DNA of 64,000 nucleotides from Sacculina carcini. Taxonomy: Eukaryota > Arthropoda > Thecostraca > Sacculinidae. Shown piece by piece: positions 5,606 through 59,472 of this stretch; the stretch's first letter is position 1; the number at the start of each line of letters is the position of its first letter. Both the position numbers and the translations under genes were made by a program. The stretch lies in NCBI GenBank assembly GCA_916048095.2, contig OU696588.1:1757501-1821500 (forward strand). The letters run 5' to 3'. The notes under the pieces are model-generated. The model worked only from the letters and a program-made list of their open reading frames with translations, did no database searches and was not told the origin of the DNA.

Positions 5606-5793
5606 GCGAAATGACCGACCAGAGTTTCTGCCTCAAGTGGGAGGGCTACCAGACCAACGTGACGTCACTGTTTGACGAGCTGCGCCTCCACGATGAGCTG
5701 GTGGACATCACGTTGTGCTGTGAAGGACATAGAATAGGAGCACATCGCATGCTCCTCTCTGCCTGCAGTCCGTATTTTAGAAATGTCTTCAAG
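5606..5793 (+). CDS. BTB domain, first half (module A, exon 1; CDS from 5611)
   Basis: The exon follows GATCTGCAG, has 5 nt of leader and opens with ATG at 5611. It gives 61 codons ending in FK at a donor AAG|GTGTGT (phase 0). Motifs are SFCLKWEGYQTN, the BTB core LVDITLCCEGHRIGAHR and LSACSPYF. In BTB-TTK proteins these make the dimer interface and the first alpha/beta part of the fold. The Asp of VDITL and the His-Arg of AHR, typical of the family, are present. Module B has a near-identical partner at 26465. I chose this Met because it stands just before the conserved FCLKW, as in lola and mod(mdg4). Confidence 0.93.
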
Positions 5794-6012
5794 GTGTGTG
5801 TTTTTTTGTGTTACATACGTCCTAGGGTAGTGAATCGATCACTGTATCTAACTATAGTTTGTAGGGTCTAATTCTGACAATGCAATTGAAGATGGAGTAT
5901 TTTTACAGTGATTTAATTAGCTATCTCGCCGTGAACTCAACTGAGTATGTATGTCTCGTTTTGCTAACGAGGCGGCCGTTTTGTCCGTTTATTGGCTATC
6001 ATTTGATTCTAG

Positions 6013-6195
6013 GAGACGAACCGGTGTCAGCACATGGTGTTCTACATGAAGGACACGAGCGCCAGTGATCTGCGTGCACTGGTCGAGTTCATGTACAAGG
6101 GCAGTGTGAACGTGTCGCAGAACCAACTGGCCAGCTTCATCAGAACGGCTAAGGCGCTGCAAATTCGCGGCCTTAGTGGCGAGGACGAACAAAAG
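6013..6195 (+). CDS. BTB domain, second half (module A, exon 2)
   Basis: This is a 183-nt exon, phase 0 in and out, between TTCTAG and AAG|GTGACG. It contributes 61 residues: CQHMVFYMKD, LRALVEFMYKGSVNVSQ and ALQIRGLSGEDEQK, the C-terminal helical half of a BTB-TTK fold. Joined to exon 1 the domain is about 115 residues, the usual BTB length. From CQHMVF onwards it is almost identical at nucleotide level to the module B exon (Lys for Glu in TAKAL versus TAEAL), although the introns on both sides have diverged completely. Confidence 0.93.
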
Positions 6196-7095
6196 GTGAC
6201 GCACACAGACAGACAGACAGACGTATATACTTCTTCCGTTGCGTATTTTATTCTGGTGTTGTACTGTCAATGCCAATGACGCTCTTATAGTTGACTGGTT
6301 TGTATTTGTGCGTATTTATCTGTGTGTGTGTGTCTTTCTGCAAGATGTTGCTCTTCTTTTATCAAAGATTCAAAATAAGTTGTAAAAATGAGCCGGCAAA
6401 TTCGTGCGAGTCGTATGGTGCGTTATTATGAGACGCACACCAGCATGTGACATTGCCAATTTACTGTTCACTGTAGCTTAGGGGTTCTTAACGGGGAAAT
6501 GTGAACCTGCGTGCGAGTATTCCTGTGAAAAAACACAGAAAATGTATGTTTTGACTTTTGTTTTATATTTATAGAACCTTGAATGAATATTGAATATAAA
6601 TGTTTTGTTATTACATCCTTTGTATTTTTATCTTTATATAGCTATAAAGAATCGAGGCGTGTGTGAGAAATGACTGCTGTTAATTCGAAAACGGTGTCAG
6701 CACTGAAACCAGCTAAAAACCCACTTCTGTAGCTCATGTCGTCTACACTCACTGCCTAACGCATGGACGTTAATCCTGCGGGGTATGGGGGTATATATAC
6801 CCCTGTAAATTGGCTGGGGGGTATGAATATTGCCATCAACATCAGCGTAGCAAAATAATAATTCACGAAAAATGTAAGAAAGTATAGATATGTGTAAAAT
6901 TATACTTTACGCAATATATTTTTCATTGAGGTGTGTGTTGTAATTGAATAGTTTGAAAATAGTTGAGGGTCTCATGCAATTAACCAAGTGAGCCAACTGG
7001 TTGATGGCAGTCATCCCCACGAGCCTCGACACAAATCTACAGCCCCTGGCTTAACGTCACATTGTTATTGTGCTTGTGTGTTGTCGGCGTGTCAG
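6196..7095 (+). other. intron 2 of module A
   Basis: No gene seen. It holds short CA/TG repeats, then TAGGGGTTCTTAA at about 6479 and a palindrome-like GGGGGTATATATACCCC at about 6786. Related sequence lies near 59750-59825, so these may be remnants of a mobile element. Confidence 0.5.
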
Positions 7096-7855
7096 TTGGA
7101 TTCGCCGGTGAAAATGCCGCATTCACCGCTGCCATCAACCTCTGTGCCGTCCAGCCAGGGCAGACGACCAAACAACTCGTCCGTCATCACTGACACCACC
7201 CTGCAGTCTTCTAGTTCGTCATCAACATCAGCGGCGGCCAGTGGTGGAGGAGCAGGAGGAGGAGGAAACTGCAGTCCGGCACTCAAGAGACGTCGACACA
7301 ACAGCGGCGGTGTTATCGCTGCTCCGTCATCTTCCTGCACAACAACAACTTCTTCTAGTGGAGTGGTCGACCTGCCTTCTGCCACGTGTACAACATCAGC
7401 GTCAGCAGCCTTCAAAATGTCGGCTTCACTCGAGCGGACGGCTCATGCGTTGACGGATCAGTCGGGCGGTGGGGCCGCCGCAGTCGCCAATGTGGACGGC
7501 GGTGACGTGCGAGCTGCCACCACGCCACCACCACCATCTATGCCGTTAACTAGCTCGGCCGGCGCTGCTTGGAATCAGGACTCGGTCGCACGTGGTTATT
7601 GCGCGCCACTGGACACTGCGACCTCGCAGATGTCACTGGCTGAAGTCAAGGTGGAGAAGGTGGATCTGACGGAGGATTCTGGCGATGATGAGGTGGACGA
7701 CGAGATGGCGGTGGCGACGGCCGGTGATATGAGCAGCAGTTTGGAGACGGCGCTCGGTCAAGTGGCCGACTATGAGAACTATGACGATGCTGGCGGCTCG
7801 GCACTGCTCTCCTCGTCAGACTTTCACCAACAACTGGCCATGGCTGATTACTCGG
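7096..7855 (+). CDS. low-complexity linker with NLS and acidic SUMO-like motif (module A, exon 3)
   Basis: A 760-nt exon (phase 0 in, phase 1 out) lies between GGCGTGTCAG and TCGG|GTCAGT. It encodes a Ser/Ala/Gly/Pro-rich linker with a basic nuclear-localisation-like NCSPALKRRRHNSGG near residue 55 of the exon. A conserved C-terminal block follows: VKVEKVDLTEDSGDDE (a psi-K-x-E SUMO-acceptor pattern beside an acidic SUMO-interaction-like VDLT), then SSLETALGQVADYENYD and FHQQLAMADYSG. Function is inferred: flexible nuclear spacer with possible SUMO-dependent repression. The module B linker shares the same blocks, separated by unrelated sequence. Confidence 0.9.
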
Positions 7856-7878
7856 GTCAGTTGCTGTTTGCTCCACAT

Positions 7879-8181
7879 CAGGGGTTTCCAACCTGATTTT
7901 GATCTAATTCCAGGGGTTCGGTGGTTTGATTCATCCACTCGCGTATGATCCGTGACTTCAAGCTCTGCTTGGTCATCATTGACTGCAGTTAATCACGTCA
8001 CATCGCTTGGTCTTGATATCTGTGCTGCAAGCAACTCGGTCCACTCAGTAGTAGCCTACTTGTGTCACTGTCTTGATCGTACGTGATTTGTTATTTTTAT
8101 AATAATAATACTTCAAACTCACGAAGGGCTCGATGGAACTTGTGTGTTGTTTAGTAGCTCCAATAAGGTTGAGAACCACTG
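7879..8181 (+). mobile_element. short hAT-like element in intron 3 of module A
   Basis: Its ends are imperfect inverted repeats: CAGGGGTTTCCAACCTG on the left, and on the right the complement of CAGTGGTTCTCAACCTT. It is non-coding. No clear target-site duplication remains. It starts right after CTCCACAT, as does the related element at 28684 in module B, which suggests the insertion predates the duplication of the module. Confidence 0.5.
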
Positions 8182-8587
8182 TACTAGTACAATGTTGCAA
8201 ACGAGGCAGATGCAACCAAATGAGTGACTGGCACTCGGTACAAGTCAAATATCTTCTTTCAGCTTGTCGTGATATGTTCAGCTCGGTTGAATATTTCTTC
8301 ATTATATTGCTGAATATAAACCAACGTCGAGTGGTTTACCTGTCTGCTCTTAACCTTATCTGTCTAATTAACCTAATTAACCTGTGTCTAATTAACCTGT
8401 CTGTTCTGGTGGCGCTTCAGCTGGTAAAACACAAGAAGAAATTCTCCTATTTTCTCGTGTAAATTTCGCGTTTCTTCTTCTGCATTTGTGTTTGTCTATT
8501 GATGCAATTATTTGTCCAGTCTTGCTTGGTTCTATGGCACATGTTAAGTGAAGAAATTCATGTGTGTTTGTGTGTGTGTGTGTGCAG

Positions 8588-8653
8588 CAAACAGTGATAT
8601 GCCCGGATCATCCCAAATGATGCCCGCAGCCGCCGATGAGTCCAGCAATCAAG
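8588..8653 (+). CDS. Met-Met mini-exon (module A, exon 4)
   Basis: A 66-nt exon, phase 1 in and out, follows a (TG)n-CAG acceptor and precedes the strong donor CAAG|GTGAGC. It reads DMPGSSQMMPAAADESSNQ. The module B equivalent reads GVPGPSHMMTAEDGNSQ. It is the last shared exon, so its phase-1 donor joins each alternative cassette. The function of the peptide is unknown. Confidence 0.88.
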
Positions 8654-10499: not shown

Positions 10500-10714
10500 G
10501 TGTTGTGAACGATGATCCGTTTGTTTGCTTCATCTGTGGCCGCTCGTATCGTAATCGGCAGTCGTTCTCGAAGCACGTCAAACTGCACCAGGGTCTCACC
10601 AAGTGTCCAGTGTGTTGTCGCGTTTTCTCCACTGTGGGCAACATGCGTGTGCACATGCGCAACGTTCACAGAGTGCAGCCGGATAACGAGGTGGCCGCAC
10701 AGCGCGATGAGTAG
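10500..10714 (+). CDS. C2H2 zinc-finger cassette A1 (terminal exon)
   Basis: It enters in phase 1 (G|GT) and stops with TAG. Finger 1 is FVCFICGRSY...SKHVKLH and finger 2 is CPVCCRVFSTVGNMRVH, ending H-x4-H. The linker QGLTK between fingers is only five residues. Helix positions -1/2/3/6 are N,Q,S,K for finger 1 and T,G,N,V for finger 2. Spliced to module A this gives a 468-residue protein. The tail after the fingers is short and lacks the LSxEQV motif found in most cassettes. Confidence 0.92.
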
Positions 10715-11337: not shown

Positions 11338-11522
11338 GTGTTGTGAGGGGACGGGCGTATGTATGTTCGGTGTGTGGCAGCGTGTATTATAATCGTTCGT
11401 CGTTGTCGCGACACAAGAACTTGCACCGAGGACGCACCCGGTGTCCGTTTTGTGCTCGCATCTTCTCCACAGTGGCCAATATGCGCATTCACATCAAGAC
11501 TGTGCACAAGACAATGTTGTGA
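11338..11522 (+). CDS. C2H2 zinc-finger cassette A2 (terminal exon)
   Basis: It follows a (TG)n-GTCAG acceptor in phase 1. Finger 1 is YVCSVCGSVYYNRSSLSRH and finger 2 is CPFCARIFSTVANMRIH. Helix residues -1/2/3/6 are N,S,S,R and T,A,N,I. It is the shortest cassette: the protein stops five residues after the last zinc His region (HKTML), so nothing follows finger 2. Its nearest relative by finger 2 is A1 (FSTVxNMR), suggesting a local duplication. Confidence 0.92.
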
Positions 11523-12988: not shown

Positions 12989-13386
12989 GCTACATGTGCT
13001 GCTTGTGCGGCATCAGCTTCCGCAATCCCATGTCGTTGAGCCACCACAGGCGCGTTCATGACGGCAGCACACAATGCTGCTTCTGTCAGCGCGTGTTCAG
13101 TAGGATCGGCGTGTTGCGACGCCATTTGTCGCAGGTGCACAACATGTCCGAACAGGATGTGGCCGCCACCACCTGCTCCAAGCGCAACAGTGCCGGCAAC
13201 AGTTCACTGGCTTTACCACTCCCTCTACCTTCTCACCCTCCATCTCCGCGCAGCCACCCTCCTCTTCCCCCTCCGTTCAACGATCCTCCCCCACCTCCTC
13301 CGCTCAATCACCCTCCGCTCCGCTTCCATCCTCCGTCCTCGCCAGAAAGTCGTCGTCGTGGTTGCAAGACAAAGACAACTAGATGA
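12989..13386 (+). CDS. C2H2 zinc-finger cassette A3 with proline-rich tail
   Basis: It enters in phase 1 after a TG-rich tract and GGGCAG. Finger 1 is MCCLCGISFRNPMSLSHH and finger 2 is CCFCQRVFSRIGVLRRH. Helix residues are N,M,S,H and R,G,V,R. After NMSEQDV comes a tail of about 75 residues that is exceptionally Pro/His/Ser rich (PPLPPPF, DPPPPPPLNHPP) and ends basic (SRRRGCKTKTTR). Such tails often act as protein-interaction regions. Only A3 and B15 carry long low-complexity tails. Confidence 0.9.
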
Positions 13387-14425: not shown

Positions 14426-14676
14426 GTCCGGTATCGTGCGGTGTATGCGGGAGGGAGTTCCTCAACCGTAATTCAATGACACATCACCGCAAGGTGCACC
14501 AAGGACTGACCACGTGTCAGGTGTGCGGTCGTGTGTGCAACAGAGTATTTGACCTGCGCAACCATCTGAGAACAAGGCATGGTCTCAGTGAGCAACAAAT
14601 CGAGCAGATGTCGCCTAGCATGCGCTCCAGACAGCTTCAAGGAGTGGTTGTTGTTCGTCACGGCTTTTCCAAGTGA
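14426..14676 (+). CDS. C2H2 zinc-finger cassette A4 (terminal exon)
   Basis: It enters in phase 1 after GTGCTCGCAG; the upstream tract is TG-poor compared with A1-A3. Finger 1 is VSCGVCGREFLNRNSMTHH and finger 2 is CQVCGRVCNRVFDLRNH, with Cys where other cassettes have Phe or Tyr (GRVC instead of GRVY). Helix residues are N,N,S,H and R,F,D,N. The tail GLSEQQIEQMSP belongs to the LSxEQV family. AATAAA lies 92 bp after the stop. Confidence 0.9.
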
Positions 14677-15231: not shown

Positions 15232-15425
15232 GAAAGAAAAAACAGTGTCCGATTTGTCAGCGAACTTTCTGCTCAGTAAGTTCCCTGCAGAAACACTCCA
15301 AGGTGCATGAAGGTCGCACGATCTGTCGCCTCTGTGGACGTGTGTATAGTCGCGTGTATCACCTGCGGAGACACTTGACCATGGTGCATCAAGTGCCTCA
15401 GGATGTCGTGCGGCGATTAGGATAA
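15232..15425 (+). CDS. C2H2 zinc-finger cassette A5 (terminal exon)
   Basis: It enters in phase 1 after GTTGCCAG and begins with a basic GKKKQ. Finger 1 is CPICQRTFCSVSSLQKH and finger 2 is CRLCGRVYSRVYHLRRH. Helix residues are S,S,S,K and R,Y,H,R. The tail QVPQDVVRRLG is a short version of the LSxEQV motif. It is the last cassette before the hAT insertion and module B. Confidence 0.9.
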
Positions 15426-15986: not shown

Positions 15987-18667
15987 CAGGGGTCACCAAA
16001 CTACGGCCCGCGGGCCGAATCCGGCCCGCGACGTCAGTTCACCAGGCCCGTCGACGGTGAACTGACGTCCTTCCTCGGCTCGTGGTAGCTTCGCCTACGC
16101 TCTCACGTCACCATGGTTCCCATGGCTACACACACAAACACGCATCTTTCCCACCCCTAGATGAGTCCGGCTGTCAACACAGGTCCGACGCTCCAGTAAT
16201 ATTTACTTCTTTTTGCCTGTCATCCATTTTATAGGTATGTAACAAGGATTTCTTTGTTTGACAGTGATAGGTAAGTGGACTACAAGTGTGATTAGAGGTC
16301 ATAAAGTAACAAACATAGTATAATAATGCTATAGAAGCCTCGTGTTATTCACCTTACCATATTATGTGATATATTCTATTACTAAATGTACCTATAAGCT
16401 TTATATGTGCCTTTGGTGAGCCGTAGCTTCACCAGTGCAGTGTGGCAAATTGTTCACAATGAATTTTTGCCACACTGTGCAGTGACCCCTGAATCTTATG
16501 CTTTACTTATGTTTCAATAGGGTATTAATTATGTTTCTAATTCAATTTCTTTTTCATTTTCATATCCCGTTTTCTTCATCATTCAATATGGCTTCTAAGG
16601 AAAGAAAAGTGGACGCCGAGTGTCGCGTTTTCAATGAAGAATGGGGAGTAAAGTACTTCTTTGTGGAAACAAAGGACCAGAAAGCTAGTTGTGTGATATG
16701 TAGCGAAAGTGCTGCCGTTTTGAAAGAGTACAATATTAGGCGTCACTATGAAACAAAACATCTATCAACATATTCAAAGTTTTCTGGAAAGTTACGCTCT
16801 GAGAAATATGAGTCCATGAAACGTGGTTTAGAAACTCAAAGAAACGTCTTCACGAGAAGGTTTGCTGAAAATTAATCTATCACTCGTACAAGTTACAAAA
16901 TAGTGCATAAGATGGCAGTCCGAGGAAAACCGTTTACTGATGGCAACTTCGTCAAAGCGTGTATGATGGAAGCAGCAAATGACTTGTGTCCTGAGAAAGC
17001 CGATTTGTTTGGAAGTATTAGCCTTTCGACAAGTTCAGTTGTGCGGAGAACAGAAGAACTCGGAGAGAATATAGAGCTACAGACACGTGAGAAAGCTAGG
17101 AACTTCTTGTGGTATTATCTGGCGCTGGATGAGTCAACTGATATCTCGAGTACGTCACAACTTCTCGTCTTCATTCGTGGTGTCAATTTGGACTTTCAGA
17201 TAACAGAAGAGTTGGCATCCGTTTGCAGCATGCATGGAACAACAACTGGAAGATATATTTTTATGGAAGTGCAGAAAACTTTGCAAGACTATAACCTTCA
17301 GTGGAATCAGCTTCGAGATGTTGCAGTTGATGGAGGTAAAACATGGCTGGAGGGAGGAAGGGTCTGGTGAGGCAGATCAGGACTCAGTTGGAAGATCTTC
17401 AAATTCCAGGCGCTCTGTTCATACACTGCATCATACATCAGCAAGCACTCTGTGGGAAAGCCTTATATATCTCTTGTGTAATGAAACCAGTCGTTTCTGC
17501 TGTGAACTTCATTCGGGGACATGCACTCAATCACCGTCAGTTCCAGGCTTTTCTTGAAGAAATTCATTCTGATTTCTGTGACTTGCCTTATTACACAGCA
17601 GTGAGATGGCTCAGCTGTGGTAAAGTCATGTTTCGTTTTTACAAGCTCCGAAGCGAAATAGATGTTTTTCTCACTGAAAAAGATAGAGCCGATCCACAGC
17701 TGTCAGATCCTATCTGGCTGTCAAAGTTGTCTTTTTTGGTCGACATCACATCCCACATGAATGAACTGAACTTGAAACTTCAGGGAAAGGATAACCTCAT
17801 CTGTGATCTCTACAGAATCATCAAAGGATTCCGGAGAAAGCTGTCATTGTTTGAAGCACAACTGGAAGGATAAAACTTCTCTCATTTTCACTGTTTCAGA
17901 TAGTTTTGCGCTTCAATCGCTGAAGATGTCAACCTCGATTTTCCAAAAAAGATTATTCGTGACTTGAAGAAGCATTTTTTGGAGAGATTTTCAGATCTCG
18001 ACAGAACTGAGTGACATTCTTCTGTTGCAGAATCCGTTTGATTGTAACCTTGATGAAGTACCAGTTGAACTACAGTTGGAGCTCATTGATTTGCAAGCAA
18101 ATGACTTGTTGAAAGATAAGCACAGAGAAGGAAAACTTGTCGAATTTTACCGCTGCTTACCTGATCCTGAGTTTCCGAAATTGAAGAAATTTGCCGCTGG
18201 TATGCCATCAGTGTTTGGAACAACTAATGTCTGTGAGCAAACATTTTCAAAATGTTTTTCAAGTATGTGAAGTCAACACGTCGAATGAGACTGACTGATG
18301 AACATTTTAAAGCAATTCTCTTAATTTGATGCAGCAATTCAAAACCAAACATTGATGATATCTTGAAAGCCAAACGTCAGTTTCACAAATCTCACTTTTT
18401 TGCTGTTTAGTTTGTGAGATTCAGATATGTGCACACTAGGTCTTATGTATCTTTTTGCTTACGTCGCCTTCTTTGAAAACTTTTTAGTAAATAAAATGTT
18501 GGTTGTCTTTGTCTTTTGATTAACATGGAATGCTAAGCTTAGTTTTTCGTCTTTTCTCCCAGAGCTTTCGTTCTGGCTTGCAAGTATTGAACAGAATGAT
18601 TATGCTGCCCGCGCTCGTCATTCTTTCAGTTATCCGGCCCACTGTGAAAAAAGTTTGGTGACCCCTG
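15987..18667 (+). mobile_element. 2.7-kb hAT transposon, GTF2IRD2/ZBED type, decayed
   Basis: The inverted ends CAGGGGTCACCAAACT and AGTTTGGTGACCCCTG are intact, and the 8-bp target-site duplication CTCTAGAT is perfect. The left end also has the ACGGCCCGCGGGCC subterminal sequence, echoed by ATCCGGCCCAC on the right. The interior carries one broken transposase on the same strand, so this copy cannot make its own transposase but could still be mobilised. Perfect duplications suggest a fairly recent insertion. Confidence 0.95.
16591..18300 (+). pseudogene. broken hAT transposase (BED finger, RNase H-like, dimerisation region)
   Basis: The start MASKERKVDAEC at 16591 leads into a BED-type finger (CVIC...HYETKH) and stops at 16873. 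The frame resumes at 16903 with a hallmark AVRGKPFTDGNFVKAC and the catalytic-type ALDESTDISSTSQ, then shifts near 17345-17370. It continues with FIHCIIHQQALCGKAL and FLTEKDRADPQLSDP to a stop at 17873, and ends with PKLKKFAAGMPSVFGTTNVC. At least two stops and two frameshifts separate the parts. The family resembles general transcription factor II-I repeat domain protein 2 and ZBED genes, which descend from such transposases. Confidence 0.88.
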
Positions 18668-26457: not shown

Positions 26458-26650
26458 ATCAGTGATGATGGCAAATCAGAGTTTCTGCCTCAAGTGGGAG
26501 GGCTACCAGACGAATGTGACTTCCGTGTTTGACGAGCTGCGTCACCACGATGAGCTGGTGGACATCACGTTGTGCTGTGAAGGACAGAGGATAGGAGCAC
26601 ATCGCATGCTCCTCTCTGCCTGCAGCCCTTACTTCAGAGATGTGCTCAAG
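26458..26650 (+). CDS. BTB domain, first half (module B, exon 1; CDS from 26465)
   Basis: After CTTTCAG there are 7 nt of leader and two consecutive ATGs (26465 and 26468); either could be used. The exon gives about 62 codons to CTCAAG|GTTGGT. It carries the same blocks as module A: SFCLKWEGYQTNVTS, LVDITLCCEGQRIGAHR and LSACSPYF. It differs in a few residues (RHHDEL for RLHDEL, GQ for GH, RDVLK for RNVFK). The donor is weaker than that of module A. Confidence 0.92.
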
Positions 26651-26885
26651 GTTGGTTGAATTGGATGTGTTCGCCTATATTTGGTTCATTTTGCCGGCAA
26701 GTCATTTTTGTCTTCTATCCAATTGACAATGAACTTGCTAAAATTCCACAATTGGTTCTAATTGGATGAAACGTAAACGAATTGTGTCAATATGAGTATA
26801 TTTACATTATACCGGTACCAAACGTCTAAATCTAATTTTGACTCAGTTTGTGCTGAATTAATTTACTTTCACATGTTTGTTACAG

Positions 26886-27065
26886 GCAAATTCGTGTCAG
26901 CACATGGTGTTCTACATGAAGGACACGAGCGCCAGTGATCTGCGTGCACTGGTCGAGTTCATGTACAAGGGCAGTGTGAACGTGTCGCAGAACCAACTGG
27001 CCAGCTTCATCAGGACGGCCGAGGCGCTGCAAATTCGCGGCCTCAGCGGCGAGGATGAACAAAAG
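26886..27065 (+). CDS. BTB domain, second half (module B, exon 2)
   Basis: A 180-nt exon, phase 0 in and out, between TGTTACAG and AAG|GTGACG. It is one codon shorter than module A at its start (ANSCQH versus ETNRCQH); thereafter only one residue differs. It completes the BTB fold, so the two modules should be able to hetero-oligomerise, as BTB-TTK proteins commonly do; that is inference. Confidence 0.92.
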
Positions 27066-27740: not shown

Positions 27741-28653
27741 CCTTCTGGTGCTGCTCCCCCACGTCTTGCGCCCCCTCCCCCTCCGCCGCAGCCTATCGTG
27801 GCGCAGAAGCGACTGGCGCCGGCGTCTGTCAACAGCGTGGACGGTGCGTCTGCCTCCTCCCCTTCTCATCTGCTACAGCAACAGCAGCACTCGGCTCACG
27901 ACCAGGCCGCATTGCTCAGTCTCAAGCAGTCGCTGTTGTCGGCGGCGGCTGTGGCGGCAGCGGCGGCCAGTAGTGGAGGAGGAGGAGGCAACTGCAGTCC
28001 GGCACTCAAGAGACGTCGACACAACAGCGGCGGTGTTATCACTGCTCTGTCATCTTCCTGCACAACATCAACTTCTTCTAGTGGAGTGGTCGACCTGCCT
28101 GCGGCTACAACTTCAACAACTTCGTCATCATCATCCACTTCTTCGTCCACATCATCAGCAGTTACGGCAGCGGCGGTGGTAGCGGCAGCAGGTGCTGGTG
28201 TTAGTGAAGATGCTAGCGTGACGGCAGTGGCGGCGACGACGACGGGGGGCTTGTCGGAGGACGCTGCCGAGCCCAGCCCTGCTTCTTCTCATCAGTCTGC
28301 TCCTTCGCCACGCACCACCGACGCGGTCGACGCGGCCGACGACGCACCGGCCGGCGCCAACGACGTCGCGAGCAGACATGACGGCGACGAGCAGCTGCAA
28401 GACGCGACAGCGGCGGTGGCGGCGCACGTTTCGCTCGACGACGTCAAGGTGGAGAAGGTGGATCTGACGGAGGATTCTGGCGATGATGACGTGGACGACG
28501 AGATGGCGGTGGCGACGGCCGGTGATATGAGCAGCAGTTTGGAGACGGCGCTCGGTCAAGTGGCCGACTATGAGAACTATGACGATGCTGGCGGCTCGGC
28601 ACTGCTCTCCTCGTCAGACTTTCACCAACAACTGGCCATGGCTGATTACTCGG
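27741..28653 (+). CDS. low-complexity linker with NLS and acidic SUMO-like motif (module B, exon 3)
   Basis: A 913-nt exon (phase 0 in, phase 1 out) between GTTGAACAG and TCGG|GTCAGT. It starts Pro-rich (PRLAPPPPPPQP), has an extra Gln/Leu block (LLQQQQHSAHDQAALLSLKQ), the shared NCSPALKRRRHNSGG, a long Ser/Thr/Ala tract, and the shared VKVEKVDLTEDSGDD to FHQQLAMADYSG end. It is 153 nt longer than the module A linker. Shared blocks are nearly identical in DNA, including silent positions, while the parts between them are unrelated. Confidence 0.9.
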
Positions 28654-29496: not shown

Positions 29497-29556
29497 GCGA
29501 GCTCGGAGTGCCGGGCCCATCACATATGATGACCGCTGAGGACGGAAATTCACAAG
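29497..29556 (+). CDS. Met-Met mini-exon (module B, exon 4)
   Basis: A 60-nt exon, phase 1 in and out, between TTGGCAG and CAAG|GTGAGC. It reads ELGVPGPSHMMTAEDGNSQ and matches exon 4 of module A in length, phase, the PGxSxMM core and the strong donor. Its acceptor is pyrimidine-rich rather than TG-rich. It is the splice source for the cassettes from 34.3 to 59.5 kb. Confidence 0.87.
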
Positions 29557-33640: not shown

Positions 33641-34297
33641 CTAGAAACACCGTTCAAGAATCATGCTGGAGTATAATATGCACATATTGAGCAAGGAACA
33701 TAGTAACCAAACTGAATATACAGAAATACCAACACTCAAACTCAATAAATCCCACAGATATATCAATGAAAAAAATTATTGACTAATATAATGCGATCAC
33801 ATGAAATACCTCCGACCTCTCAGCACAATGCCGGAAGATGTTCGTCAATGTGCGCCAAATTAGCAATAGTGATGAGCCATTTACTGTATTGGGTATCATC
33901 ATGTATTAATCATGATAAGTGTTTGAAATTGTATGTGATTATTTATATAAATTCGCATAAAAGGCCGATTTTAAGCTGAAAAAACATAAAACGCCATTAC
34001 CACTGATAAATTTACAAATGTTCTATATGTTGCGCCTGAAATTAATCTATTCTGTTAATGATTGTAATTAGACAGATCACGGATCCTACATGTACATGGA
34101 GTGTACATGTTATCCTATCATAACATGGAGTGTACATGTTATGATACACTCCACACTGTATACACGTACAATATTAGCGTCAGCAACGTTAACAATGGAA
34201 GTATAGCAACGTTCCTGATATCTTCTTAAGTCCGGACACCATGAGCGTTGCACGGAGTTTCCTAAGTAATTTCATTTGAAAATGTGACTGTCTGCAG

Positions 34298-34680
34298 GGT
34301 TTATGGAGACAATACGGGTCCAAGGACCCATGAAGACTTTTGAATATCATGTCTACAACCGCAACGTGTACAGACTAAGGACCACCATTCGTGGAAATAA
34401 ATACTTCTCATGTATTCACCCAAAATGTGGTGGAAGTCTCGTTTGCTCGTTGGGCGGAGAAAATATCGGACGGCTGCAACCACACAACCATGAGGACGAC
34501 ACGAGCAAAATATTGGACCTACGCGTGAAAGCAGCTTGTTATCAGCTCGCAAGAAACTCCCACCTGAAGATCAGTCAAATATACGCGAAATCTGTCGAAG
34601 AATTCCCAGACCACCACATACCATACTACAAGCTGGAGAAAGCTATGTCAAACATACGCACAAAAATCAAGCGCAAATAA
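34298..34680 (+). CDS. FLYWCH-type zinc-finger cassette (terminal exon of module B)
   Basis: It enters in phase 1 after CTGTCTGCAG, as all C2H2 cassettes do. The reading has the FLYWCH pattern: FEYHVYNRNVYRLRTTIRGN, then KYFSCIHPKC, SLVC and finally LQPHNHEDD. The usual Trp is Phe; the Cys and the H-x-H pair are kept. A helical C-terminal part follows (KISQIYAKSVEEFPDHH) with a basic end NIRTKIKRK. In Drosophila mod(mdg4) most alternative ends are FLYWCH fingers that bind protein partners at insulators. Here it is the only one among C2H2 pairs. AATAAA lies 200 bp after the stop. Confidence 0.85.
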
Positions 34681-34880
34681 CATCTACGATAACTGAGCTA
34701 ATGCACGGAATGTCAGTGTGCGTGTGCACGTGCGAGTCTAGTTCTGGCTACTTGTACGTATGCGTGTGTATGATTATATGTGTGCGTGATTATACTTGAT
34801 TTTGTATCTTGGTTTATGTTTTTATAGTTGTTTGTTTCTGTGTGTTTGAGTGGTGTGCTTCACTTTTCCCGTGAGGTACA

Positions 34881-37418: not shown

Positions 37419-37693
37419 AGGGTGGTGCCAGTGTTGGCGGCGGCAGCACGTGTCGAGTGTGTGGCCGCTTCTACCTGAACGCCGTCTCTCTGAAACACCA
37501 CATGGCCCAACACCGCGGCCTCACCGTGTGCTCTATGTGCGGTCATGTTTCCAGTCGCATTGGCAATTTGCGCGTGCACCTGCGTCGTGTACACCAGTTG
37601 TCCAGTGACGATGTGGAGCTGCTTGTTCCACGGCGTATTGCGCTCAAACCCAGGGACTCGCCGTTCACTTTTCCGCCTACCTCACTGCAGTGA
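37419..37693 (+). CDS. C2H2 zinc-finger cassette B1 (terminal exon)
   Basis: It enters in phase 1 after GGATGTTTCAG with a Gly-rich lead (EGGASVGGGS). Finger 1 is CRVCGRFYLNAVSLKHH and finger 2 is CSMCGHVSSRIGNLRVH, where Ser replaces the usual aromatic residue. Helix residues are N,V,S,H and R,G,N,V. The tail QLSSDDVELLVPRRIALKP is a full LSxEQVxxIVPTR motif. With module B it gives 537 residues. Confidence 0.92.
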
Positions 37694-38861: not shown

Positions 38862-39073
38862 GTCCGTTCGCTTGTCATATTTGTGGCCGTTCGTTCCAAC
38901 ACAAGAACTCCCTGGCTCCTCACATGAAGATGCACGAGGGCAAGACCCGTTGTGTGCTGTGTCGGCGTGTGTATAATCGCGTTGGAGCGCTGAGAAAGCA
39001 CCTGACTCTCGGGCATCGCTTAACTCGCGAGCAAGTTTCGCTCATTGTTCCGTCGACCAGGAGGAACAACTGA
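38862..39073 (+). CDS. C2H2 zinc-finger cassette B2 (terminal exon)
   Basis: It enters in phase 1 after (TG)n and TCGTAG. Finger 1 is FACHICGRSFQHKNSLAPH and finger 2 is CVLCRRVYNRVGALRKH. Helix residues are H,N,S,P and R,G,A,K. The tail is RLTREQVSLIVPSTRRNN. It is closely related to B3 (same CHIC start, same YNRVGALR helix), so the pair arose by duplication. Confidence 0.93.
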
Positions 39074-39630: not shown

Positions 39631-39875
39631 GTGGTGTATACTGTTGTCATATTTGTGCACGCACGTTTCTCCATCGGAAGTCGCTGATAGCACACAGAAA
39701 GGTTCACGAGGGGAAAACCCAATGTCCTCTGTGTCATCGAGTGTATAATCGGGTAGGAGCGCTGCGTGATCATCTGTGCCTCAGACACCATCTATCCGAT
39801 GACGAAATGTACAGGCTGGTGCCCAGTGATCGTAGGAGACATCCGCGTGGCGATCGTCAATTACGTTTCAATTGA
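39631..39875 (+). CDS. C2H2 zinc-finger cassette B3 (terminal exon)
   Basis: It enters in phase 1 after (TG)n and GATCGTAG. Finger 1 is YCCHICARTFLHRKSLIAH and finger 2 is CPLCHRVYNRVGALRDH. Helix residues are H,K,S,A and R,G,A,D. The tail HLSDDEMYRLVPSDRRRHP is longer and more basic than that of B2. Finger 2 differs from B2 at helix position 6 (Asp for Lys), which would change base preference. Confidence 0.93.
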
Positions 39876-40722: not shown

Positions 40723-41213
40723 TGGTCTGCTTATCTAGAGGTCAGTTTCGTCCAGTTAGGCTGCTCGTCTATTTCTCTTTCGTGTTAAAACACGAAGCAA
40801 TAATCCGCACAACTTCAAACCACGAGCTGATGTAATAGCTCAACTTGTCTTTTTGATCGTTCGAACGTTTGGTATTCCATCATCTGCGTTGGCCGAGTTC
40901 TACCACGATCCTTGCGAAGAAGGCTCTATATGAAACAGTTTTCAGTCCTGAGTGCTTAGTTGATCATTAGTATCAGATGACAACGGAGTCGCACTGGTAG
41001 TCAACTACTAATGCTATCTGCTCCTGACTGATTGCGATTGAAGAGAGGTTCATGTAGGAGCTCTAAAATCGAAGGAGCTCAGTATTCACTCGAATCCATA
41101 CAATGGTCATTCCTGCACAATATTTCGATATTCCAACTCTTAGTTTCTTCACTGGACTTTCTCATGTATGCGTCGTAATACATCGTCGGGTGTGTGTGTG
41201 TGTGTCCCGGCAG

Positions 41214-41434
41214 TCTTCTACGAGTGTATGATATGTGGCAAATGCTACCGACGACGCACGGGTCTGTGGGACCACATGAAGGTGCATGACGGCTCCACGC
41301 GCTGTCCTCTGTGTGCGTCAGTGTACAGTAACATGGGCAATCTTCGTAATCATTTACGCACATGTCATGGTGTCAGTAATGATGAAATTCGCGCTTACTA
41401 TTCACACCCGAGCAAACGCTATCCTCGAAGTTAG
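41214..41434 (+). CDS. C2H2 zinc-finger cassette B4 (older half of the duplicated pair)
   Basis: It enters in phase 1 after (TG)n-CCCGGCAG. Finger 1 is YECMICGKCYRRRTGLWDH and finger 2 is CPLCASVYSNMGNLRNH. Helix residues -1/2/3/6 are R,T,G,D and N,G,N,N. The tail is GVSNDEIRAYYSHPSKR, a diverged LSxEQV motif with Tyr-Tyr. Calling it the older half is a guess; polarity cannot be told from the sequence alone. Confidence 0.93.
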
Positions 41435-42534: not shown

Positions 42535-42757
42535 GCTTGGGCAAAGCTTCACGGCCCCCGCAGGTCCGGCCGCCACACACGGGTTATCGCAGTTACCGCC
42601 AGCACAGAAACTGCACGGCTGCGCACACGAAACCCGCCCTGTGGCAATTGGTCTATCCCTATAAGAAACGAACCTAAACGTTTCACCTCGCCAGGGAATC
42701 GAGCCCTGGAGCTCTCGTGCACAGTGTGCATCTTAGCCACTCGGCTACGAGCCTGAC
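42535..42757 (-). mobile_element. second SINE type, tRNA-like head (in copy 2)
   Basis: Duplicate of 40480-40722, without the extra internal block. Confidence 0.55.
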
Positions 42758-43272
42758 AATGGTCTGGATATCTAGAGGTCAGTTTCGTCCAGTTAGGCTG
42801 CTCGTCTGTTTCTCTTTCGTGTTAAAACACGAAGCAATAAACCGCACAACGTCAAACCACTAGCTGATGTAATAGCTCAACTTGTCTTTTTAATCGTTCG
42901 AACGTTTGGTATTCCATACTCTGCGTTGGCCGAGTTCTACCACGATCATTGCGAAGAAGGCTGTATATGAAACAGTTTTCAGTCCTGAGTGCTTAGTTGA
43001 TCATTAGTATCAGATGGCAACGGAGACGCACTGGTAGTCAACTACTAATGCTATCTTCTCCTGACTCATTGCGATTGAAGAGAGGTTCATGTAGGAGCTC
43101 TAAAATCAAAGGAGTTCAGTATTCACTCGAATCGATACAAGGGTCATTCCTGCACAATATTTCGATATTCCAACTCTTGGTTTCTTCACTGGACTTTCTC
43201 ATGTATGCGTCGTAATACATCGTCGGGTGTGTGTGTGTGCTTGTGTGTGTGTGTGTGTGTGTGTCTCGGCAG

Positions 43273-43493
43273 TCTTCTACGAGTGTAGGATATGTGGCAA
43301 ATGCTACCGACGACGCACGAGTCTGTGGGACCACATGAAGGTGCATGACGGCTCCACGCGCTGTCCTCTGTGTGCGTCAGTGTACAGTAGCATGGGCAAT
43401 CTTCGTAGTCATTTGCGCACTTGTCATAGTGTCAGTAATGATGAAATTCGCGCTTACTATTCACACCCGTGCAAACGCTATCCTCGAAGTTAG
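43273..43493 (+). CDS. C2H2 zinc-finger cassette B5 (newer half of the duplicated pair)
   Basis: It enters in phase 1 after a long (TG)n and CTCGGCAG. Finger 1 is YECRICGKCYRRRTSLWDH and finger 2 is CPLCASVYSSMGNLRSH. It differs from B4 by six amino-acid and two silent changes. Three of the six fall on helix contact positions: +3 of finger 1 (Gly/Ser), -1 and +6 of finger 2 (Asn/Ser twice). The reading frame, zinc ligands and tail are intact, so it looks functional. Confidence 0.93.
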
Positions 43494-44302
43494 ATCACGA
43501 CGCAGATATCAAAGTTGGTTTACCAAGACTTGTATTTTCGCCTGAATCTTGTCGGAGCGATTTGTTCACTATTTAGATGCTTCGTTTCTCTGCGGTGCTT
43601 TTTGTCCTGATATGGACTTGTATGTATCGGAATTGTTTTTCTAACGTTTTATTTGAACTCCATGTTCTTGTATTGTGTTGTCGACGGTGCTTTTCTGATC
43701 TTTCCTGGCCTGAACTGGACAACGTGGTGCGGTTGTGTTTGATGCTGGCGCAGTGCGATGCTTATTTTATAACGAATATATTTCTCATTTTTATCGTGTT
43801 TTGTTTTTCTTCAACGTAGCGGTTATTTCAAAACGTTTCAAGTGATATAACAGGCACTTGTCACTGACACAATTCGATCGCCTGGGCGAATAGATGCGGC
43901 AGTTTCACTTCGATCTCGTCGTCTTGAGCTAGCAAGTATGCTGGAAGCGGAGCGAATAGTTGTCGCAATTCGCTAGGCTATGTTCACAAGTCTATAAATA
44001 TTTATTCAATCGGGCTCGTAGAACGGAGAAGGTGCAATGTGTACAGCTAGGCGTGATGGAAGTTATCGTAGGTTACTTCTCGGATGCCTTTTACTCTTTG
44101 ATCCTTATTTTTCCAGAATTTGTGACGGTCAACATTTCGCTAGCTGACTTTTCACCGTCCTGATAGTTTTATTCGGAACTTTTTGTCATCCGGAGTACGG
44201 CTTGCTGTTCTTCTGTCGGTGTGTGTGTGTGTCTCCGATAGAATGGGGTGATTTACGTTTGTTTCCGCGTTGTGTGTGCGTGTGTGTGTGCTGGGTTTTC
44301 AG

Positions 44303-44571
44303 GGCAGTTCGAGTGTGAGACTTGCGGTAAGCGTTATGCGCGCCATCAGTCACTAGCTTACCACATGAAAACCCACCAGGGGCTCACCGTATGTCCTCTG
44401 TGTCAACGAGTCTACAGTATGGTGCACAACTTGCGACTGCACTTGCGCCGAGTGCATCACTTGTCAGTGGAGCAGGTGCGTAGCATCGTGCCCACTCGAC
44501 AACGATTCTCCAGCGATTTGTTGTTTCAGTCTGCGTCAATGTCGCCTCCAGTGAGAAGATCTGACGACTAA
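44303..44571 (+). CDS. C2H2 zinc-finger cassette B6 (terminal exon)
   Basis: It enters in phase 1 after a TG tract and GGGTTTTCAG. Finger 1 is FECETCGKRYARHQSLAYH and finger 2 is CPLCQRVYSMVHNLRLH. Helix residues are R,Q,S,Y and M,H,N,L. The tail HLSVEQVRSIVPTRQR is the clearest example of the shared C-terminal motif, followed by Ser-rich residues ending RRSDD. Confidence 0.93.
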
Positions 44572-45558: not shown

Positions 45559-45848
45559 ATATAGCGTCCGAATTGGCACTCGCGTCTGCCCAATTTTTAC
45601 AGTCGGCTGCACCCTCCACCCACGGTCTACACACGTGTGAAGTGTGTCATCGTTCTTACAAATCGAAATACGTGTTGACTCGCCACATGCAAGTGCACCA
45701 GGGTCGTACCGTGTGCACCGTGTGTGGTCGCGTGTTCAGCATGGTGCACCATTTGCGTCGACATCTGCTCTGTGTGCACACACTGACACGTCGTGCTGTT
45801 GATACCATCGTGCCTATGTCGCGAAGACAGCCCAGGGCGCGTCGCTAA
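45559..45848 (+). CDS. C2H2 zinc-finger cassette B7 (terminal exon)
   Basis: It enters in phase 1 after TG-rich sequence and GTGTTCAG. A lead of about 30 residues (ASELALASAQFLQSAAP) precedes finger 1, HTCEVCHRSYKSKYVLTRH. Finger 2 is CTVCGRVFSMVHHLRRH. Helix residues are S,Y,V,R and M,H,H,R. The tail TLTRRAVDTIVPMSRRQP is a basic version of the motif. Helix residues 1-5 of finger 2 resemble B6 and B8. Confidence 0.92.
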
Positions 45849-46685: not shown

Positions 46686-46975
46686 TGGACGAACGGTGGA
46701 GGCCGCAGTTGCGCTGTCGTGTGTGTCAAGTGGTGTACTCGCGTCGTGATTGTCTCGCCGAGCACATGAAGAAACACTGTGGAATGACAGAGTGCCCTCT
46801 CTGTGCTCGGGTCTACAGTCTGGTGCACAACCTGCGCCGTCACATGCGCACGCATCATCAACTTTCCAACGAACATATCACCCAGATGCTTTCTTCGCGA
46901 AAGAATCCATTCGTTGTTGTTCCATACTCCTCTCCCTCGATGCCTCCTTGCTTTCCTCCTTATAAGCGTTCATAG
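46686..46975 (+). CDS. C2H2 zinc-finger cassette B8 (terminal exon)
   Basis: It enters in phase 1 after (TG)n-CGGCAG. Finger 1 is LRCRVCQVVYSRRDCLAEH and finger 2 is CPLCARVYSLVHNLRRH. The linker CGMTE is atypical: Cys and Met where others have EGKT. Helix residues are R,D,C,E and L,H,N,R. The tail QLSNEHITQMLSSRKNPF is followed by a Pro/Ser-rich end with FPPYKRS. Confidence 0.92.
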
Positions 46976-48289: not shown

Positions 48290-48573
48290 ATTGCTCACGA
48301 TCGTCGGGTGGTAGCGGTGGTGCCGTTATTGATAATGTGAAATCTCTCGAAAAGCACATGCGGCTGCACAATCAGCGGGCTCGTTGCCGTATGTGTGGTC
48401 GTGTCTACAGTAGTCAGAGATATTTGCGCGTGCATCTTCGTACAGTGCATTGGCTGTCGACTGAACAGGTGCAATCCATGGTGCCCACTCTGCGTTGGCG
48501 GCCCTCCATCAAGGACATTGTTGATCCGACCGTCGACAATAGTCACTCAACCAGGAATCAACGCAACAAATGA
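48290..48573 (+). CDS. zinc-finger cassette B9 with a degenerate first finger
   Basis: It enters in phase 1 after (TG)n and TATTCCAG. Finger 1 has lost its Cys pair: the region reads CSRSSGGSGGAVIDNVKS and only the helix and His pair remain (LEKHMRLH). Finger 2 is intact (CRMCGRVYSSQRYLRVH; helix S,R,Y,V). The tail WLSTEQVQSMVPTLRW keeps the shared motif. The frame and splice site are intact, so it is probably expressed as a one-finger isoform. AATAAA lies 9 bp after the stop. Confidence 0.88.
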
Positions 48574-49319: not shown

Positions 49320-49549
49320 ACACTTTGCGTCATTACGTTTGCGTGGCGTGCGGCAAGGTGTATTGCTCCCAGGACGGCCTACGCACGCACATGAAGATGC
49401 ACGAGGGCAAGACACGATGTCCTCTCTGCAGTCGCGTGTACAGCAAGGTGTCCAATTTGCGCCACCATTTGCGTAGTTGTCATCATTTGAGTAAGCAAGA
49501 AGTGTGCGCCGTTGTTCCAACTCGAAATCACTCCCACAGTCGGCTCTAG
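49320..49549 (+). CDS. C2H2 zinc-finger cassette B10 (terminal exon)
   Basis: It enters in phase 1 after a T/G-rich tract and GTGTTGCAG. Finger 1 is YVCVACGKVYCSQDGLRTH and finger 2 is CPLCSRVYSKVSNLRHH. Helix residues are S,D,G,T and K,S,N,H. The tail HLSKQEVCAVVPTRNHSH is a clear LSxEQV/VPTR motif. Confidence 0.93.
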
Positions 49550-50396: not shown

Positions 50397-50704
50397 TGTG
50401 TCTTATTTGCGGCAAAGTGTTTGCTTCGTACAACGGCTGCCGTAGCCACATGAAGAAGCACGAGGGTCGCACCGTGTGTCCTCTATGCGGTGGCGTCTAC
50501 AGCCGCGTCGATAACCTGCGCAAGCACATGGAGTCGCTGCACCACCTGTCGCCTGAACACGTGCGCAAGCTGATTCCGACACGTGGTCGCGCCGGTAGTC
50601 GTCTGGGCCGTCCGTTGCCCATGTTGTTGCAATTAAGCCAGCAGCAGCAGCAACAACAACAACAGTCGCAGTCAGACACTGAGTCAGATTCCCGTCCGTC
50701 CTGA
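50397..50704 (+). CDS. C2H2 zinc-finger cassette B11 with polyglutamine tail
   Basis: It enters in phase 1 after (TG)n and TTGCAG. Finger 1 starts at once (VCLICGKVFASYNGCRSH) and finger 2 is CPLCGGVYSRVDNLRKH. Helix residues are S,N,G,S and R,D,N,K; the finger 2 set resembles known purine-rich, GAG-type modules. The tail has HLSPEHVRKLIPTRGR, then seven or eight glutamines and an acidic Ser-rich end (SDTESDSRPS). Confidence 0.92.
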
Positions 50705-52407: not shown

Positions 52408-52670
52408 GAACGGCGACATTTGTGCCGGACACCGCTGGCGGCGGCGTCGGAGGCCTCTACAGATGCTACCTGTGCGGACAGAGGTACACGGTGCTCACCA
52501 GCTTGCGCATGCACATGAAGAAGCACCAGGGCAAGACGGTGTGCGTGGTGTGTGGCGGCGTTTTCAGCATGACCAACAATCTTCGTCGTCACATGCGCTG
52601 CGTGCATCGTATGTCTCGTGACCAAGTAGATTCGCTGTGTCGATCGACCCGTCTCGGTGTCGACAACTAG
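52408..52670 (+). CDS. C2H2 zinc-finger cassette B12 (terminal exon)
   Basis: It enters in phase 1 after GTGTGTGCCGCCAG. A Gly-rich lead (TAGGGVGG) precedes finger 1, YRCYLCGQRYTVLTSLRMH; finger 2 is CVVCGGVFSMTNNLRRH. Helix residues are V,T,S,M and M,N,N,R. The tail RMSRDQVDSLCRSTRLG has Cys where others have Val-Pro. Finger 2 is nearly the same as in B13. Confidence 0.92.
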
Positions 52671-55055: not shown

Positions 55056-55369
55056 GAGTGGTAGGCGCTGTCGCTCCCATCTCCGGAATCATACGAACGC
55101 CTTCGAATTCTGTCAGGTCCTCAACGATGGATCGACCTCATCGCTGCCAGATTTGCCAAGTGGGCTACTCTTCACCGGCCATTCTGCGCCAGCATATGAA
55201 AATGCACGAGGGCAAGACAGTGTGTCGTCTGTGCGGCGGTGTGTTTAGCATGACCAACAGTTTGCGGCGTCATATGCGAGTTACCCATGCTCTCAGCACC
55301 GCTCAGGTCAACGAGATGTGTGGTCGGTTCGCTCGTGTGAGTCGAGGCTGGAGCAGAGGTGGATTTTGA
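55056..55369 (+). CDS. C2H2 zinc-finger cassette B13 (terminal exon)
   Basis: It enters in phase 1 after TCTGGTTGGCAG. A lead of about 30 residues (VAPISGIIRTPSNS) precedes finger 1, HRCQICQVGYSSPAILRQH. Finger 2 is CRLCGGVFSMTNSLRRH. Helix residues are S,A,I,Q and M,N,S,R. Finger 1 has a Pro at helix position 1. The tail ALSTAQVNEMCGRFARVS resembles B12, pointing to a duplication of the pair. Confidence 0.92.
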
Positions 55370-56277: not shown

Positions 56278-56552
56278 TCACTAAGACGCCCTGTCCAGTG
56301 TGCAACAAGTCTTTTGTGAACCTGGGCGAGCACATGGATTTGCATACCGGACGCACTCAATGTCCTCTCTGTGGCGTTGTCTACAGTACGCTCAACAACC
56401 TGCGCAAGCATCTTCGTATGCTGCACCGGCTCTCCACTGATCAAGTGTATTCTCTTGTGCCCAACAAATTCAAACCCAACCCGGTCTCGACTAGCTCCTC
56501 TAGCGAATCCGTTACCGCTGCCTACGAACACCGGAGGTCGAAGCATGTCTGA
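56278..56552 (+). CDS. C2H2 zinc-finger cassette B14 with a shortened first finger
   Basis: It enters in phase 1 after (TG)n-TTGCAG. Finger 1 reads TPCPVCNKSFVNLGEHMDLH, with only nine residues between the second Cys and first His instead of twelve, so a normal recognition helix is lacking. Finger 2 is intact (CPLCGVVYSTLNNLRKH; helix T,N,N,K). The tail RLSTDQVYSLVPNKFKPN is followed by a Ser-rich stretch and RRSKHV. The deletion is in frame. Confidence 0.9.
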
Positions 56553-57331: not shown

Positions 57332-57339
57332 CTGATTAT
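57332..57339. repeat. 8-bp target-site duplication CTGATTAT (left)
   Basis: Identical to 58562-58569. Confidence 0.9.
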
Positions 57340-58561
57340 TAGGGCTGTCAAAAGTTAATAAAGTTACTTTTTCACCTAATGGTCACTTTTTCGTAAGCTA
57401 CCTAAAACTGCATGAAAAAGTTGTGTATGATAATTATTTAAAAAGTTATTAGGTTACCAAAAGTTACTTTTTCATCGTTAGGTTACTTTTTTGCTTTTAA
57501 GGTTACTTTTTTATCGTCAGGTTACCTTTTGTTATTTTTCTTGTTATTAGGTAAGTTTACCACGAGGTTTGGTGACTTTTTGCAGATAAGAGGCACAAAA
57601 ACGGTATATATGAGGATAAAATAGGAAAAGAGATGGAATATTAGGTCTGAAGATCAAGAAATGTCAACATTTATGCTGTTGGGATTTAGCAATTGATATT
57701 CATCTTAATATCCGTGCTACTCGATATTTATACGTTTTTGGGTACGCAGGATAGCGTAATTCCATTTTAGGAAATGTCCACGAACCGGAGGGTGTCGTGA
57801 GATGTTTGGAGCGTGGTATAGTACGATGTGTGAACTCTCTATACCAGATACTGCACTGTAGCACTTGACAGTACGTATTTACTTTAGCAGGAATTTGCAC
57901 GTGATTTTCAGGGCGTGAGATAGCGCCATTATCCCACGTTTGACATATGGGAGGACGGGGGGCATTCACACATGCAGTGTTTACGCTACTTTAGTACGTG
58001 CTATTTGATAAAAAGTTCCATTGAAAAAATATAAAGAACATTATTGCGACCATTACTAAAAATATTTACATTTGCAATTAGTGTATTTCGCATTTGTATG
58101 AGCTTTCCACTTAAAATTATATTTTGATGGTTATGCTCCTTTTTTCGTTGTTAGCTAAATTATGTTAAGTCACTTTTGGTTGTTTGTTGTAAAAATGGTA
58201 CCAGATCGGAGAGGGTGGAAAAGTAGTACCAACTCGGAAAGATGATAAAAAAGAAGGACTGGTGTATTTTCTTCCTTCAGAACTGCAAACAGAAATTGAC
58301 CTTTTTTCAATGAGGTTATTTTCAGGTTACCTTTTTATTGGTTATTAGGTTACTTTATATGTTCACAAACAAACAACAAACAAGCCGTGTATTTCACAGA
58401 GCGCACTAATCAGCAAAGGCGTGATAAACATGTGATAAAACGATACAAAAGTGATAATAACTTTAAAACTCAGATCATTTTAGGTTACTTTTTTAGGTTA
58501 CTTTTTCTCGAAAATAAAGTTACTTTTTTCCGATTTTTAGGTTACTTTTTTGACAGCCCTA
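57340..58561. mobile_element. 1.2-kb non-autonomous hAT element
   Basis: The ends TAGGGCTGTCAAA and TTTGACAGCCCTA are inverted repeats and the 8-bp CTGATTAT is duplicated perfectly. The inside has no transposase. Near both ends it carries many copies of GGTTACTTTTT, spaced irregularly, which may be transposase-binding sites or internally amplified ends. Confidence 0.9.
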
Positions 58562-58569
58562 CTGATTAT
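58562..58569. repeat. 8-bp target-site duplication CTGATTAT (right)
   Basis: Matches 57332-57339 exactly. Confidence 0.9.
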
Positions 58570-59176
58570 CCCTCTAATCGTTTGATTATCCGTTGATAGG
58601 ACAACAACTCGTTTTCTCCTGTCCGATGCATATGATTGTATCTTATGGTTGATGTCGTGGTATACTCTATTTTTTTTCAAGTTGTCATATTGACGTTGTG
58701 CTGAAGTTATGATTTCTGCAGAAGAAGCAGTTAATACTGTTGTTTTGCAACGACTCCACCTCCACACACACCGGCATTCTCATATAGGCGCATTAACGGT
58801 GTGTTCGATCTGTTCAGGCTATTGACGAGATTCTTGGAGAGGAACGGTCGGCGGTCATCGATGGCCCTCTTTCTGAGTTTTTACGGCTTCTGACTTTTAT
58901 AATTTTTTGTGAGCTTTATTCATTGAGATTCACATCCATTTCGTTCACCATCACGCTTATTTATTTAATCGTTCCATTTTTCATGATCATCATTTTTAGG
59001 TAGTTTAGCTATAAGTGGACTGGGGGTGGTGTATGGTCCCAGAGGCCGGTGCACTCCATGTACACCAATAACAACGACAACACTCCACTGACACCACAAT
59101 CACGAATTTTTCTCGTTATATTTCACATGTTGTTTGAATTTCCGCTCATTCTATGTGCTTGCGCTGTTCTCGCTAG

Positions 59177-59472
59177 GTCGTCGCTTCCAGTGTCCTCACT
59201 GTCTCAAGAACTTTAGCCGCTCGGACAACCTCAAGGCGCACATGCAGAAGCACGAGGGCAAGACTCGCTGTCACATTTGCGGCTGCTCCTACAGCACCGT
59301 CTGGTATCTACGCTACCACATGCGCACACAGCACCGTCTGGGAGGTGTCGACGTGCTGCCTCTGGCCTCGTCCTCCGGCGTTCCGGGCGCCGGAGCTACG
59401 TCGGTCTCGTCGGCGGCGGCGGCGGTGGCCACGTTGTCCATGTTGCTGCAGCAGCGGAGTACATCACAGTGA
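59177..59472 (+). CDS. C2H2 zinc-finger cassette B15 (last cassette)
   Basis: It enters in phase 1 after GTTCTCGCTAG, one of the few acceptors without a TG tract. Finger 1 is FQCPHCLKNFSRSDNLKAH and finger 2 is CHICGCSYSTVWYLRYH. The helix RSDNLKA of finger 1 is the classic set for a triplet ending AG. Finger 2 residues are T,W,Y,Y. The tail is unlike the others: HRLGGVDVLPL then about 45 residues rich in Ser, Ala and Leu (SSAAAAVATLSMLLQQ). AATAAA follows 258 bp after the stop. Confidence 0.92.

Follow-up and report, generated by a model that had tools for sequence, protein, structure and literature searches.

The 64,000-nucleotide stretch of Sacculina carcini DNA analysed here (the window; contig OU696588.1, G000:C23:1757501-1821500 in our numbering) probably carries two tandemly duplicated genes that resemble the Broad-Complex of insects, one built on a BTB core (core A) with five C2H2 zinc-finger ends and the other on a second core (core B) with 15. 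A preliminary description had proposed one BTB scaffold with 21 interchangeable ends. The plan of a BTB region followed by many alternative C2H2 ends is borne out by the anatomy (20 cassettes, 18 of them with canonical finger pairs), whereas the single scaffold gives way to two complete cores, with five cassettes (at 10.5-15.4 kb) lying upstream of core B.

Each gene would consist of one BTB core, comprising two exons that encode the BTB domain, a linker exon and a small exon that begins and ends in phase 1 and can be skipped, and this core would be joined by alternative splicing to a single terminal exon, with five choices for A and 15 for B. Every terminal exon would supply a C2H2 pair and the stop codon. 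All the proteins would share a dimerising or multimerising BTB domain and differ in the DNA they bind; tandem exon duplication has enlarged the array, and exon-sized gene conversion would have kept the core alike.

Models of both cores (A, 5611-8653; B, 26465-29556) have splice sites and unbroken reading frames, and both match the Pfam BTB profile, with E-values of 4e-26 and 2.4e-25, respectively; a search of the PDB with the BTB domain returns general BTB matches. In both, an acceptor-like AG immediately precedes the first ATG, and both may therefore receive a spliced 5' leader. Exon 3 already ends in phase 1 and the small exon 4 can therefore be skipped; when core A is joined without this exon, all 21 joins stay open. 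The N-terminal motif FCLKWE of the window BTBs retains the F, L and W of FxLRWN, a motif of TTK-type BTB domains (PMC11426971), with R replaced by K and N by E. The TTK-like group is reported from arthropods only (PMC11426971). At an E-value of 0.01 the linker motif of exon 3 matches A and B alone, with fainter pieces in the linkers of two relatives, C23_633 and the C22 locus described below.

Terminal cassettes and their acceptors

A regular expression picks out the fingers, and a profile, built from the family with the window cassettes themselves included, recovers all 20 C2H2 cassettes, five between A and B and 15 downstream of B. A weak partial profile match at 58745-58816 (E 0.014) is left out of this count. 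The consensus is C2H2 with an H-x-G-x-T-x-C linker, and a PDB search with the profile gives general C2H2 matches. Two cassettes are irregular: in the one at 48322 the first Cys pair of finger 1 is missing, and in the one at 56292 finger 1 is short. No two of the 18 canonical pairs have the same base-contact residues (four positions per finger, numbered after Zif268). Entropy at the contact positions is 2.59 bits, against 1.83 elsewhere (permutation P 0.03); in the C22 array the values are 2.21 and 1.85 (P 0.08). This diversity fits different DNA targets for the different ends.

As the preliminary description had noted, a phase-1 AG lies upstream of the cassettes and the exon length is 2 modulo 3, both in 20 of 20 C2H2 cassettes. 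Given the chosen phase and an in-frame stop, this length is automatic and adds no separate evidence; likewise the joins of all 21 cassettes (the FLYWCH piece treated below included) are open to core A and to core B, as had been claimed, because of phase alone. Independent support comes from choosing the acceptor with phase ignored, using an acceptor scoring matrix. The top-scoring AG within 150 nucleotides is in phase for 13 of 20 cassettes (P 0.004), and the top-scoring AG in the open frame for 17 of 20 (P 3e-6). The AG that comes first beyond the last TG run is in phase for 13 of 13 (P 6e-7), seven cassettes having no run. At the other loci read, the top AG in 150 nucleotides is in phase for 17 of 23 cassettes (P 8e-5), two of the 23 being identical copies. 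The cassette acceptors are thus better than chance. An in-frame ATG occurs upstream of finger 1 in eight of the 20 cassettes; the other 12 have none, which excludes them as single-exon genes encoding both fingers. AATAAA lies within 600 nucleotides of the stop in five of 21, which is no enrichment over a background of 29%.

A TG run of at least eight nucleotides lies within 50 nucleotides of the acceptor in 13 of the 20 window cassettes, compared with 44 of the 2399 remaining + strand AGs (AGs close to named acceptors excluded) and 34 of 2973 on the - strand. At the window core acceptors the count is one of six, in the C22 array four of 12 (control 37 of 1531) and at the small loci five of eight, three C18 cassettes with unclear acceptors being excluded. 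Such runs also precede eight of the family's 13 exon-2 acceptors, though not the two that lie in the window; here the AG was picked by frame, some picks fall a few bases inside the exon, and C18_557 and C18_620 show the same sequence. Since TG runs are frequent at acceptors across the family, they support the cassettes as exons and give no evidence of special end selection; they look like a normal acceptor feature of these genes. CA runs follow the donors of the two small exons, 9 nucleotides past that of A4 and about 1.4 kb past that of B4. A UG-repeat pairing between these and the TG runs, by which ends would be selected, was considered and rejected as specific, the same runs being present at the eight exon-2 acceptors.

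Array growth and homogenised core exons

Growth by repeated exon duplication, as first suggested, is supported by four pairs of neighbours that join with support in a tree of 43 cassettes (10526/11364, 38873/39645, 41225/43284 and 52464/55145, named by position) and by a tandem duplication of 2064 bp, 92.5% identical (39989-42011 and 42034-44070), with one cassette per copy. With gaps left out, flanks and cassette are alike, about 95-96% identical, hence the duplicate is recent and no selection is visible yet. For the pairs 38862/39631, 52464/55145 and 10526/11364 the ratio of nonsynonymous to synonymous divergence (dN/dS) is 0.19, 0.15 and 0.44, at a synonymous divergence (dS) of 2.0, 2.7 and 0.9, respectively. 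Most other forks of the tree are without support, and neither the A cassettes nor the B cassettes form one group. Judged from these duplicates, the array is built by tandem exon duplication.

Cores A and B match in islands that correspond to exons (91%, 95%, 88% and 97%), the introns being largely dissimilar; dN/dS for exons 1 and 2 is about 0.11. Synonymous differences number 13 in 37.8 sites in exon 1 and 6 in 36.5 in exon 2 (P 0.11, not significant), as against 0 in 46.7 at the end of exon 3 (P 7e-6 versus exon 1). A sharper contrast is seen between B and two paralogues 0.4 Mb away, for which exon 1 is near saturation: the synonymous difference to C23_2162 is 0.72 in exon 1 and 0.11 in exon 2 (P 1e-7), and to C23_1384/1380 it is 0.74 and 0.08 (P 2e-9). 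The contrast is weaker for the C35 locus (0.72 and 0.35), and C23_1338/1340 is near in both exons (0.25 and 0.08). At G000:C23:1380475-1384745 BTB exons 1 and 2 lie on the - strand 4 kb apart and are presumed to form one gene, exon 2 being homogenised with that of the window; no finger cassette was found on the - strand in the 55 kb read there. The likeness of exon 2 is most simply explained by gene conversion or exon transfer, and this exon has probably been homogenised between loci by gene conversion.

Features of the two cores and of the cassette array (window coordinates)
Feature	Coordinates	Strand	Remark
Core A exon 1, coding part (BTB first half)	5611..5793	+	acceptor-like AG immediately upstream
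Core A exon 2 (BTB second half)	6013..6195	+	
Core A exon 3 (linker)	about 7096..7855	+	5' boundary inferred; ends in phase 1
Core A exon 4	8588..8653	+	66 nt, phase 1 to phase 1, skippable
C2H2 cassette 1	10500..10714	+	
C2H2 cassette 2	11338..11522	+	
C2H2 cassette 3	12989..13386	+	
C2H2 cassette 4	14426..14676	+	
C2H2 cassette 5	15232..15425	+	
Core B exon 1, coding part	26465..26650	+	acceptor-like AG immediately upstream
Core B exon 2	26886..27065	+	homogenised with exon 2 of other loci
Core B exon 3 (linker)	about 27741..28653	+	5' boundary inferred; 3' part 97% DNA identity with A
Core B exon 4	29497..29556	+	60 nt, phase 1 to phase 1
MULE-transposon-derived FLYWCH fragment	34257..34699	+	open frame 34298-34680; putative exon
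C2H2 cassette 6	37419..37693	+	
C2H2 cassette 7	38862..39073	+	
C2H2 cassette 8	39631..39875	+	
C2H2 cassette 9	41214..41434	+	
C2H2 cassette 10	43273..43493	+	tandem copy of cassette 9
C2H2 cassette 11	44303..44571	+	
C2H2 cassette 12	45559..45848	+	acceptor less certain: out-of-phase AG scores higher
C2H2 cassette 13	46686..46975	+	acceptor less certain: out-of-phase AG scores higher
C2H2 cassette 14	48290..48573	+	finger 1 without Cys pair
C2H2 cassette 15	49320..49549	+	
C2H2 cassette 16	50397..50704	+	
C2H2 cassette 17	52408..52670	+	
C2H2 cassette 18	55056..55369	+	acceptor less certain: out-of-phase AG scores higher
C2H2 cassette 19	56278..56552	+	short finger 1
C2H2 cassette 20	59177..59472	+	

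Repeats and a transposon remnant also occupy the window. A long GT-rich microsatellite fills positions 1-600 and a minisatellite of 23-base units (29894-30696, about 19-29 copies) begins just past exon 4 of core B; both contain long chance open frames. Between the last core A cassette and core B lies a transposase-like remnant (16486-18270) with an interrupted frame; the zinc finger PF18658 matches in its first open frame (E 3e-9), and it may be of hAT kinship.

A FLYWCH-like piece among the cassettes

The preliminary description had counted a FLYWCH exon as the 21st end. The 20 C2H2 cassettes stand; membership of the FLYWCH piece in the set is not borne out, the piece being a transposon fragment without a TG-run acceptor. 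Its open frame scores 14.6 bits against the Pfam FLYWCH profile, below the cut-off of 23.6. About 440 bp, the AG included, are 81-84% identical in DNA, in whole or in part, to four other places in the genome (L010-L013), the identity to L010 being 82% over 438 bp. L010, L011 and L012 mutually share 900-1156 bp and L013 about 218 bp; the match to the window stops at 34699 in three of these relatives and at 34674 in L012. In L010, the only close relative scanned, matches to a Mutator-like element (MULE) transposase (E 7.7e-12) and to FLYWCH (E 0.0015, below the cut-off) lie in one frame. In all, 65 genome matches to the fragment are found at an E-value of 0.1, the window included, many of them at about 30% identity and in frames hundreds of codons long. 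Given its identity to L010-L013 and the continuation of L010 into MULE transposase, the window copy is, on DNA identity, MULE-transposon-derived.

Whether this fragment has been domesticated, turning from transposon sequence into a host exon that serves as the 21st end, is a question on which the evidence is divided, and we regard the proposal as doubtful. Its frame is open over 126 codons behind an in-phase acceptor, whereas three of the four nearest relatives have stops within the match and L010 and L012 differ by 2-nucleotide indels. L010, however, likewise keeps an open frame, of 345 codons. Changes on the window branch amount to 21 synonymous, 30 nonsynonymous and 0 stops, compared with neutral means of 12.8, 36.1 and 2.0 (P 0.05 for nonsynonymous changes, P 0.12 for stops), which is weakly better than neutral; the synonymous excess may date from the time when the transposon was active. 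Pairwise dN/dS is 0.39-0.40 to L010, L011 and L012 and 0.63 to the short L013. The acceptor-like AG is common to the transposon copies, a TG run is absent, and the domain score is the low one given above. The selection figures are not enough to call the fragment domesticated, and as an exon it is putative.

Relatives in the genome and comparison with known systems

A second array lies on the - strand of contig C22 (5239439-5264401, L031-L033), with at least 12 C2H2 cassettes and a Broad-like BTB core at 5269458-5270443. The regular expression finds 12 regular pairs there, and the profile adds one at 57.8 bits and two partial ones at 17-18 bits; in the 40 kb read, a single BTB core precedes its own ends. 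In addition, there are at least 12 small loci, five each on C23 and C18 and one each on C35 and C2, that combine a BTB match with one or two finger pairs. These counts are lower bounds, from matches to BTB and finger queries in the genome searched (264 Mb, 43 contigs), and the C2 locus and the C18 locus at 4.21 Mb are known from query matches only. At about 562, 622 and 685 kb on C18 (L016, L017 and L018) three near-alike loci, each with a BTB and a finger pair, are spaced about 62 kb apart, and are either a recent segmental duplication or an assembly repeat.

The C22 locus bears on a different arrangement of the window, in which A and B would be alternative core sets of one complex locus, perhaps behind one upstream leader, sharing all 20 ends, with A skipping B or with trans-splicing as in lola and mod(mdg4). 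The single phase of the cassettes, the 21 joins open to either core, the acceptor-like AG before both first coding exons and the similarity of the cores, greatest at the end of exon 3, are all consistent with it. However, the open joins come from phase alone, cassettes 1-5 lie upstream of core B, so that cis-splicing cannot give B those ends, and the C22 array places one core ahead of its own ends; we therefore think such sharing unlikely. Quite unlikely, too, is a scheme in which the Mutator-like FLYWCH piece with its own in-phase acceptor is a working 21st end while gene conversion keeps the second half of the BTB alike throughout the family, letting proteins with diverging ends co-assemble. 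That exon duplication has left a large number of dead or unused cassettes behind, with few ends spliced, is very improbable: finger 1 is irregular in two of 20, the newest duplicate is without visible selection and poly(A) signals are not enriched, but all 20 frames are open and end in stops, both fingers are canonical in all but those two, and the acceptors are in phase beyond chance.

Two tandem Broad-like genes thus remain the preferred reading. The Broad-Complex (br/BR-C) of insects has a BTB core followed by alternative terminal exons with C2H2 pairs in one phase, and the window resembles it in anatomy. It differs in having 20 ends over two tandem cores, as against four to six in one, and in a BTB exon 2 that is homogenised between loci. 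In the tree the window BTBs group with the C22 BTB (support 99/98), which is 64% identical to the Broad sequence used for comparison; the join to this Broad sequence is unsupported. The pair is Broad-like from these likenesses, and Broad itself is a candidate relation, not an established orthologue.

A combination of lola-type and mod(mdg4)-type ends, as originally envisaged, is not supported by these results, the FLYWCH piece being the MULE fragment and the nearest BTB relative the Broad-like C22 locus. The lola-type finger pair has a C2HC first finger, unlike the C2H2 consensus of the window cassettes. A lola finger pair used as query gives six matches in the genome, none in the window (best C22:6470095 and 6473710). 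Drosophila lola (longitudinals lacking) has a BTB core and 20 isoforms, 17 of them with different C2H2 ends (PMC11426971). The mod(mdg4) gene shares with the window a BTB core with many alternative 3' ends; in Drosophila 26 of its 31 ends carry FLYWCH, and some ends are encoded on the opposite strand (PMC4667647), whereas in the window FLYWCH is found in one of 21, transposon-derived and below the Pfam cut-off, and all 21 are on one strand.

Expansion of the Br-C family has already been reported in barnacles. Two barnacle transcriptomes are reported to contain 42 and 36 Br-C genes, a lineage-specific expansion (PMC7077169), and expansion of Lola and Br-C is stated for barnacle genomes (PMC11331182); the portions of these two accounts consulted here describe no terminal-exon array. 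The present locus suggests that transcript-based counts of Br-C genes may in part count alternative ends of few loci. One regulator core would have been multiplied in two ways in one genome, with many DNA-binding ends per core and many cores, which offers a natural system for asking whether a choice of terminal exons takes the place of gene duplication. Related genomes would allow a direct test of how a homogenised BTB exon contrasts with ends that diverge.

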